Source of the DNA: Daphnia pulex
Taxonomy: Eukaryota; Arthropoda; Branchiopoda; Diplostraca; Daphniidae
DNA length: 64,000 bases
Assembly (NCBI RefSeq): GCF_021134715.1
Contig: NC_060023.1
Location: 10,044,001-10,108,000 of the forward strand
Direction: 5' to 3'
The notes under the pieces were generated by a model that was given only the letters and a program-made list of their open reading frames with translations, did not search any database and was not told the origin of the DNA. This document shows, piece by piece, positions 50,912 through 53,404 of the stretch. A program made the position numbers and the translations under genes. The first letter of the stretch is position 1. Each line of letters begins with the position of its first letter.

Positions 50912-53404
50912 TTAGGCGGTCTCTTCCTCTGGGTTGTCGTCCTCAACAAATTCACCATCATCGACGGTAGCCTCCTGTTGTGGTTAACAATATCAAAAGT
51001 TAAGTCGTGATTCTATTTATGGATCTAAATGGCTGAGGAAAATGACCTGGTATTGTTGGTATTCAGAGACAAGATCGTTCATGTTGGATTCGGCCTCAGT
51101 GAATTCCATCTCGTCCATGCCCTCACCAGTGTACCAATGGAGGAAAGCCTTGCGCCTGAACATAGCAGTAAACTGCTCGGAGATACGCTTGAAGATCTCT
51201 TGGATGGCAGTTCTGAAGGAAAAATGAAACATTAAAATTTAAGATTTAGAAAAGTTGACAGAAAGTTAAAGACATACGAGTTGCCGATGAAAGTGGCAGC
51301 CATCTTGAGTCCCCTGGGTGGAATGTCACAAACTGCAGTCTTAACGTTGTTAGGAATCCATTCAACGAAGTACGAAGAGTTCTTGTTCTGAACATTCAAC
51401 ATCTGTTCATCAACCTCCTTCATGGACATGCGTCCACGGAAGATGGCGGCGACGGTCAAGTAACGACCGTGGCGGGGATCGCAGGCGGCCATCATGTTCT
51501 TGGCATCGAACATCTTTAAACCGAAAAATATAAACCGGTTATTTAACAATTTACTCCGACACTTAAACAAATCAAATTCGTTACCTGTTGGGTGAGTTCT
51601 GGGACGGAAAGAGCGCGGTACTGCTGAGATCCACGGGCAGTGAGGGGCGCGAAACCAGGCATGAAGAAATGGAGACGAGGGAAGGGCACCATGTTCACGG
51701 CCAACTTACGCAAATCAGCGTTCAACTGACCTGGGAAACGGAGGCAGGTGGTGACTCCTGACATGGTAACCTAAATTACAAACCACATTTAAAATCCAGT
51801 CACACCGACCAATTGAGATAAATGGTGAGTAAAAGAGATCATTAGACGCCGGGCTGACTCACAGACACGAGATTGTTTAAGTCACTGTAAGTCGGATTTT
51901 CCAACTTTAGTGTTCGGAAACAAATATCGTAAAGAGCCTCATTATCGATGCAGAACGTAGAGTCCGTATTTTCAACGAGCTGATGTACAGACAGTGTGGC
52001 GTTGTACGGCTCCACCACAACTTCGGATACCTATATTGTAAGGAGAAGAAAAGATGAAATAAAACTCACCGAAACTAAATGATTGAGGTCGCCATAAGTA
52101 GGGGAGGTTAATTTAAGGGTGCGGAAGCAGATGTCATAAAGCGCTTCGTTGTCGATACAGAAGGTTTCGTCGGTGTTTTCGACCAATTGGTGAACGGAGA
52201 GGGTTGCATTGTAGGGTTCCACCACAGTATCGGACACCTATAACCAGACGAGACAGCAAGCACGTAAAGGACCGTATTAATAAAACAGTTAACTGACAAA
52301 AGAATCAAATTGTTACATAATACTACCAAACAGTTAACACTCAAATAAAACATCATCCCCACTCGAGATTGACTCAAATGTTAAAGCATGGATACATAAT
52401 ATTGGTAGGCATAATTACTTTTGGGGAAGGAACAACTGAGAATGTGTTCATGATACGATCTGGGTATTCCTCTCGAATCTTGGAAATGAGCAGGGTTCCC
52501 ATTCCGGATCCAGTACCACCTCCCAAGGAATGAGCAAGTTGGAATCCCTTTTTGAAAAAAAAAAGATAAAAATTAAATAAACAATTTGAAATGTCAAAAA
52601 AGTTGTGAAGTGACAATGACATACCTGGAGACAGTCACAGTTTTCAGCTTCTTTACGGACAACATCAAGTACAGAATCAACCAATTCAGCACCTTCGGTG
52701 TAGTGACCCTTGGCCCAGTTGTTGCCAGCTCCACTTTGACCGAATACAAAATTGTCAGGTCGGAAGATCCTTCCATATGGTCCAGAGCGAACAGAGTCCA
52801 TGGTGCCGGGCTCCAAGTCAACCAGAACAGCACGGGGAACATACTTTCCACCTGAACCTCACCAAGCATACACATGAGTAATTTTTTCAGAGACACAAAG
52901 AACAGAAAAGAAGATGAGAACTAAACTTACTCGAGGCCTCATTGTAGTAAACATTGATCCTCTCAAGTTGAAGGTTGCTGTCACCGATGTATTTGCCCTC
53001 TGGATCTACTCCATGTTCGTCGGAAATGATCTCCCAGAACTAAAAGGAAAAACGCAGGAAACACATTTAACATCAAGTCTTTCATCATACAAAAGAAACC
53101 CATAAAAAAACTAGTCTGAACCGGCACCGCCTCGTGGAGAATCCGACTCGCAACCGCGGGTTGAGAGCCGGCAACAAGGGAGGCATGGGTGTGGTTGGCT
53201 GATACACGTCAGCGGCCATTGTGCCGGCATACAGCCCAACCGTCAAGCAGCCCCCCAAAGGGAGGGGTAGGGAGGGGACAAGATGGCAGCAGTTTTCTTT
53301 TTCTCAAAATTTCAGCGTTTTTACACAATGACAAGAACACGAATTACCTTAGAACCGATCTGGTTACCGCACTGACCGGCTTGGAGGTGAACAATTTCGC
53401 GCAT
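50912..53404 (-). CDS. Beta-tubulin with mutually exclusive exons
   Basis: Exons 5' to 3': 53404-53348, 53039-52931, 52851-52625, 52547-52419, then either A 52237-52070 or B 52030-51863, then 51770-51585, 51513-51278, 51212-51047, 50974-50912. With one of A or B the CDS is 1341 nt (446 aa), the exact beta-tubulin length. Seen: autoregulatory MREI start, GTP-binding [10 protein letters not shown] in the fourth exon, and an acidic tail [11 protein letters not shown] with few glutamates after DDGEF. It forms the alpha/beta heterodimer of microtubules and holds the exchangeable GTP. The isoform with exon A is canonical. The isoform with exon B changes seven residues between 177 and 227 (see the exon entries). 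Confidence 0.97.
51863..52030 (-). CDS. Beta-tubulin alternative exon B (variant)
   Basis: 168 nt, phase 0 at both ends, with its own acceptor (ATATAG) and donor (GTGAGT). It starts [14 protein letters not shown], has [14 protein letters not shown] and ends [14 protein letters not shown]. Compared with A: D177E, T178V, E198S, T218E, S219N, G223S, H227N (add 2 for structural numbering). Base-binding Y222 and N226, and N204, are kept. Synonymous codons differ throughout while the protein is largely kept, so it is not a recent copy or a decaying exon. Confidence 0.9.
52070..52237 (-). CDS. Beta-tubulin alternative exon A (canonical)
   Basis: 168 nt, phase 0 at both ends, residues 175-230: begins [14 protein letters not shown], contains [14 protein letters not shown], ends [14 protein letters not shown]. 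This is the standard metazoan sequence, with D177 (D179 in structural numbering) of the T5 loop and H227 (H229) of the taxane pocket. Its donor (GTGAGT) lies 39 nt from the start of exon B. Confidence 0.95.

Follow-up and report, generated by a model that had tools for sequence, protein, structure and literature searches.

A beta-tubulin gene in the analyzed window, a stretch of 64,000 nt of the Daphnia pulex genome, carries two neighboring homologous exons (A and B) that encode alternative versions of the same segment of the protein. For the locus as a whole, we consider it likely that either exon A or exon B is chosen during splicing, that joining of the two would be sterically excluded, and that exon B would give rise to a retuned isoform. 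In our best reading, the pair appears to be old and mutually exclusive and would swap the exchangeable-nucleotide/vinca face of beta-tubulin. The interpretation of this DNA given in an earlier note was partly supported, as described below.

Gene Structure and the Two Alternative Exons

The coding part of the gene lies on the minus strand, from 53404 down to 50912. It begins with coding exon 1 (53348..53404, 19 protein letters), followed by exons 2 (52931..53039), 3 (52625..52851), and 4 (52419..52547), the last of which ends with the residues SPK, up to residue 174, and has a phase-0 donor. After an intron of 181 nt (52238..52418) come exon A (52070..52237), which encodes the canonical residues 175–230, a spacer of 39 nt (52031..52069), which contains the gtgagt donor of A, yUnAy sites, and the acceptor of B, and exon B (51863..52030), which encodes the alternative residues 175–230. 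An intron of 92 nt (51771..51862) leads to coding exon 6 (51585..51770), which starts with VTMSG and whose acceptor is common to A or B; exons 7 (51278..51513), 8 (51047..51212), and 9 (50912..50974, including the stop codon) complete the gene, all on the minus strand.

Exons A and B are 168 nt each, are in phase 0, and have GT/AG sites on both sides (ttatag/GTG...TCG/gtgagt for A and atatag/GTA...TCT/gtgagt for B). The earlier note had described two adjacent phase-0 exons of this length as alternatives for residues 175–230 of a 446-aa beta-tubulin, and its coordinates, phase, and splice sites proved correct. The gene is a beta-tubulin gene with a real A/B exon pair, correct to the base. The two exons are neighboring, internal, of equal length and the same phase, and identical at 49 of 56 residues, which is the anatomy of mutually exclusive homologous exons.

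With A alone or B alone the product has 446 aa, with both it has 502 aa, and with neither 390 aa. Because the joins that include both exons or neither of them are all in frame, the frame gives no guard against wrong joins. Isoform B contains the Pfam domains PF00091 (Tubulin) and PF03953 (Tubulin_C), both above the cut-off, and its alignment with a beta-tubulin of solved structure (447 aa) covers the full length.

At least two other beta-tubulin genes were detected in the genome (133 Mb, 13 contigs), on contigs C4 and C2. In both, the corresponding segment contains no intron, being part of a single open stretch that starts near residue 131 and runs to the end, and no second copy of the segment was found in either gene. 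Three further tubulin genes, which we take to be alpha-tubulin-like, share a strand and a region of about 6.5 kb (G000:C5:9123226-9129592; L001, L002, L004).

Divergence and Selection between Exons A and B

Exons A and B are identical at 113 of 168 nt. Seven residues change from A to B: D177E, T178V, E198S, T218E, S219N, G223S, and H227N in the numbering of the window protein. These correspond to structural positions 179, 180, 200, 220, 221, 225, and 229, an offset of two that is anchored on Tyr224/Gly225 of PMC4982639, equivalent to Y222/G223 here. All seven changes named in the earlier note were found.

Among the 49 codons whose residue is unchanged, 12 are identical and 37 are synonymous, and 17 of the 22 comparable fourfold sites differ. 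A comparison of dN and dS between the exons, as proposed in the earlier note, gave a dN of 0.13 (NG86) or 0.11 (ML), and dS was saturated, with no value from NG86 and an ML value of 9.6 that is unreliable as a number. In addition, a protein model of Daphnia galeata (P0003, 502 aa) is identical to the A+B product of the window at 502 of 502 residues. Saturated synonymous divergence combined with low amino-acid divergence implies long retention under purifying selection. Judged by these patterns, the pair is old and selected, which agrees with what had been concluded earlier from its heavy synonymous divergence.

Chance similarity between A and B was rejected in view of the identical residues, the synonymous codons, and the identity in D. 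galeata. The notion that exon B is a dead exon was likewise discarded, given the saturated synonymous divergence and the D. galeata match. Codon fit, measured against a reference set of three tubulin genes, is 0.53 for exon B, 0.67 for exon A, and 0.63–0.91 for other 56-codon windows of the gene. A value this low might be expected of a duplicate that is in decay and never enters a transcript; however, synonymous change is saturated while amino-acid change is low, exon B is identical in D. galeata, and its splice sites are intact, so that we regard decay as extremely unlikely. The synonymous codons and the D. galeata identity both argue that exon B is no relic, and a codon fit below that of every window in the rest of the gene is compatible with minor or restricted use of an isoform.

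Spacer and Possible Basis of Exclusive Splicing

The spacer between exons A and B (52069-52031) is indeed 39 nt long, as claimed before, whereas 65–308 nt are found for the remaining eight introns of the gene. Branch-like sites (yUnAy) in the spacer lie 10, 15, and 31 nt from its beginning, which leaves 29, 24, and 8 nt to its end. The first two would suit exon B if A is skipped (an intron of 388 nt), yet they are very close to the donor of A. From these predicted branch sites, we infer that the anatomy of the spacer would amount to steric exclusion of A-B joining; the short spacer and its nearby branch-like sites fit the mutually exclusive, sterically incompatible pair that the earlier note had envisaged. 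U1 bound to the donor of exon A would make the branch region of B, 10–15 nt away, unusable. Exon A would then either be connected to exon 6 or be left out in favor of B, with no A-to-B join, and the gene would make two beta-tubulins of 446 aa through the choice of exon.

Some or all transcripts might instead contain both exons and encode a tubulin of 502 aa in which the T5-H7 segment is doubled. The A+B join is in frame, and gene models of 502–512 aa exist in D. galeata, Drosophila navojoa, Drosophila persimilis, and Anopheles. On the other hand, models built without isoforms may chain exclusive exons, the join requires that 39 nt act as an intron whose branch-like sites are either 10 or 15 nt away from the donor or 8 nt ahead of the end, and a doubled stretch from the T5 loop to H7 would be hard to fit into the GTPase fold of tubulin. 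We consider such a protein very unlikely and favor the choice of one exon per transcript.

RNA structure was assessed in a single 401-nt fold of intron 4, exon A, and the spacer. No excess structure was found in this fold (z = 0.56; 71 of 100 shuffles were equally or more stable). An inverted pair of 11 nt, 91% complementary, connects the downstream intron (51802-51812) with exon A (52166-52176). Control of the exon choice by competing base-pairing gained no support from these two results, although it may still operate. Within the intron before exon A, two related stretches of 25 nt (52283-52307 and 52328-52352) are 76% alike and both contain AAACAGTTAAC (+ strand). They represent a candidate splicing-control element, or a chance similarity.

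A separate observation concerns a 12-kb metagenome contig in ENA, whose protein P0147 shares 211 identical residues with the window from exon 2 to exon A and then continues as VSFHHEMGN. This continuation points to a near relative that has a GTGAGT-compatible donor after A and a different spacer sequence.

Exon Pairs in Other Animals

To look for similar pairs, we used three protein searches (best 120 of 5386, best 120 of 3537, and best 120 of 4318 matches), which gave 249 proteins in total. Two segments exactly 56 residues apart were present in 7 of the 249 proteins among the matches listed; the database is clustered at 90% identity, so that B isoforms a few residues away from A may be hidden within A clusters. 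The seven belong to D. galeata, Blattella germanica, Drosophila navojoa (AWZ03_004331), Drosophila persimilis (GL23875), Lucilia cuprina (FF38_03490), Ceratitis capitata, and Anopheles stephensi. All came from the first search (best 120 of 5386), and the other two added none. In that search, 39 of the 120 proteins had at least two matching segments: besides the seven exact pairs, these were a Culex model, the primate protein Callithrix P0017, and 30 proteins with copies farther apart, partial, or overlapping. The Culex model contains the pair, but each copy is missing its first residues, and the model was omitted from the comparison below. The Callithrix protein, with two near-canonical copies that overlap by two residues, was judged to be unrelated.

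Thus, among the matches listed, six of the seven pair-bearing models outside the window are from insects; these outside pairs are known from protein models alone, each of which contains both copies. The earlier note had proposed to look for the pair in other cladocerans. The model of D. galeata bears out this part, whereas a limit to cladocerans does not hold, given the six insect models. In all pair models the exon limits are shared to the residue and the canonical copy comes first. Models with exon A only were found in Anopheles minimus (P0162), Wyeomyia (P0198), and the cricket Gryllus (P0134), and these grouped with the pair genes in the gene tree described below.

Eight complete pairs (the window and the seven among the matches listed) were compared. 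Residue 178 is threonine in 8/8 A exons and valine in 8/8 B exons, a count that includes two identical Daphnia pairs and so represents fewer than eight independent cases. It is the sole position that separates all A from all B exons. Residue 177 is glutamate in seven of the eight B exons and aspartate in that of Anopheles. The lowest pairwise identity is 54/56 among A exons and 38/56 among B exons.

The fly genes are listed under the names hypothetical protein, GL23875, or tubulin beta chain; the fly pair genes presumably correspond to the Drosophila betaTub97EF class. Like the window gene, the insect pair models of this presumed class have adjacent copies of residues 175–230, with the same limits and order and with V178 in the second copy. 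Their B exons are more diverged than that of Daphnia and lack H227N: residue 227 (structural 229) of exon B is asparagine in the two Daphnia, glutamate in Blattella, and histidine in the five flies and mosquito. Judged by these models, water flea, flies, mosquito, and cockroach can probably select one of two types of microtubule subunit through splicing.

Outside the pairs, V178 also occurs in 19 single-segment proteins among the 249 listed (e.g., Toxocara, Parascaris, Argopecten, Oncorhynchus, and Creolimax). Alanine occupies this position in 23 of the 249 (P0057, P0201, P0202, P0214-P0231, P0233, and P0236), including proteins of Neocallimastix, Piromyces, and Schistosoma haematobium, at a residue called highly conserved in print. 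The V178 and A178 proteins together imply that loss of the threonine is tolerated.

No match was found in the viral contigs searched. A scan of prokaryotes gave eight loci; some of them are tubulin-like genes of bacteria, and one (L029) is an animal-like tubulin whose matched stretch contains no exon B. Three of the loci (L026, L027, and L028; contigs filed as Myxococcales/Polyangia MAGs) match most of the length of eukaryotic beta-tubulin, with an identity of 41–43% in the best segment. They are possibly bacterial tubulins, or mis-binned sequences.

Origin of the Exon Pair

Two trees were built, a gene tree of 27 rows from the parts outside the exon and a segment tree of 34 rows from the 56-residue segment, the latter without A and B of D. 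galeata (identical to those of the window) and without Culex. In the gene tree, 5 of 23 inner branches were starred, and the Daphnia gene, Blattella, and the fly genes were not joined. In the segment tree, the B exons were not joined either, and those of Blattella and Anopheles stood beside nematode segments. Neither of two constraints was rejected: the seven B rows held together (p-AU = 0.291) and Daphnia B placed with the seven A rows (p-AU = 0.209).

Since both trees are poorly resolved, a single origin has to be argued from the exon limits, the order of the copies, and V178. One origin before the branchiopod-insect split appears to be the simpler reading. Independent duplication in cladocerans and insects, with V178 shared by convergence, would be compatible with the proposed splicing mechanism. 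The failure of the segment tree to unite the B exons, the unrejected constraints, the separation of the genes in the gene tree, and the occurrence of V178 in other beta-tubulins all leave room for it; nevertheless, limits equal to the residue, the canonical-first order, and the diagnostic residue are shared throughout, and we rate parallel origin as rather unlikely and prefer a single one.

The animal-like tubulin of the prokaryote scan (L029, 1701-3448) lies on a contig filed as Gammaproteobacteria. It is an intron-bearing beta-tubulin gene with an apparent intron at residue 174/175, followed by one copy of the segment, and the contig is probably a mis-binned eukaryotic one. Its apparent intron and single segment copy suggest that this intron may predate the duplication.

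Predicted Effect of Exon B on the Protein

Structurally, the exon reaches from the T5 loop to the beginning of H7. According to PMC4982639, the vinblastine/auristatin site is located at the interdimer interface, and its beta side consists of the T5 loop, the end of H6, the H6-H7 loop, and the start of H7; auristatin is bonded by the side chain of Asp179 and by the backbone amide of Gly225. In exon B, these two residues (structural numbering) are changed; the contact of Gly225 is through the backbone and would be kept by a change from glycine to serine, which is a point against the proposed retuning.

Residue 178 is situated in the T5 loop, where its hydroxyl bonds the ribose or Asn101 (PMC8637541). 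In the same paper, yeast tub2-T178V heterozygotes had lower dynamicity, like T178M, and greater high-benomyl resistance, which the authors read as a possible constitutive GTP-like state; compared with T178M, rates were faster and pausing was reduced. The yeast T178V is a single substitution in another background than that of isoform B.

The earlier note had placed the pair over the nucleotide loop and the taxane pocket. The first part is strengthened by T178V in the T5 loop of all B exons compared; the second concerns one of the seven changes, and taxane-pocket switching as the main point was rejected because the B exons differ from one another at structural position 229 (N, E, or H). As this residue varies while V178 is constant, the emphasis regarding drugs was moved from the taxane site to the nucleotide/vinca face.

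V178 in the T5 loop together with the changes in the H6-H7 loop would tune the exchangeable-GTP site and the longitudinal interface of isoform B differently, and its lattice would most likely be less dynamic and more GTP-like in some tissue, stage, or temperature. By analogy with the yeast mutant, isoform B plausibly yields steadier microtubules. Exon B might also be a real splice isoform that is functionally near-neutral or serves mere dose control, with no tuned subunit. Such an isoform would agree with the greater variation of B than of A exons between species, the lower codon fit of B, and the presence of V178 in other beta-tubulins, but it would not predict that exon B is identical in two Daphnia, that V178 is found in 8/8 B exons, or that the exon is free of stops and frame breaks. 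We therefore hold near-neutrality to be improbable and retain a tuned isoform B as the working interpretation.

In the introduction of PMC8802551, Drosophila beta-tubulin 97EF is described, citing Myachina 2017, as dispensable for viability and fertility and as having a tissue-specific, temperature-dependent part in microtubule stability; this, like the V178 and A178 of other beta-tubulins, calls for caution regarding the effect of isoform B. PMC8555087, citing earlier work, describes betaTub97EF as microtubule-stabilizing and as strongly induced in the cold in Drosophila S2R+ cells. It is tempting, although speculative and on balance doubtful, to imagine an arthropod exon switch that has existed since before the branchiopod-insect split and replaces T178 with V178 to lock beta-tubulin nearer to a GTP-like state, so that lattice stability would be set by splicing rather than by an isotype gene of its own. 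Given the cold induction of betaTub97EF, such a switch may possibly respond to temperature.

Comparison with Known Systems

Tubulin diversity is normally ascribed to several genes and to modifications. A full-text literature search gave, among the matches listed, no article that deals with exclusive exons of a tubulin, with most subscription papers lying outside the collection searched. The word tubulin is absent from the main texts of PMC3303723, PMC3228551, PMC9013439, and PMC3923563. As far as their accessible parts go, PMC3692071 mentions beta-tubulin for fungi only, PMC9981717 merely cites Myachina 2017, and PMC5982817 and PMC11045863 mention betaTub97EF without splicing. In Drosophila, an annotation of the A/B pair may already exist.

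The arrangement places a nucleotide-sensing, longitudinal-contact segment in one exchangeable cassette while all else is constant. A and B form a naturally matched pair, suited to studying the way in which the T5 and H6-H7 loops set dynamic instability, and the one constant change of B, T178V, has a prior study in yeast.

The exclusive exons of Dscam, nAChR alpha6, and 14-3-3zeta, which arose by tandem duplication, are of equal length, in the same phase, homologous, and neighboring, like the window pair, and in both cases a single exon of the cluster is expected to be used. Unlike these systems, the window pair consists of two exons, belongs to the core fold of a cytoskeletal protein that hardly varies, and is of predicted exclusivity. 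Exons 2 and 3 of alpha-tropomyosin are a pair governed by steric exclusion; the likeness is that the donor of A and the branch region of B are apparently too close to join, a situation that is predicted from sequence in the window. The beta-tubulin isotypes encoded by separate genes also provide alternative subunits with substitutions at interfaces, whereas the difference in the window gene is limited to one exon, and the rest, including the tail, is common to both products. The window pair would join the known mutually exclusive exons and is unusual for its place, a nearly invariant segment of the core.
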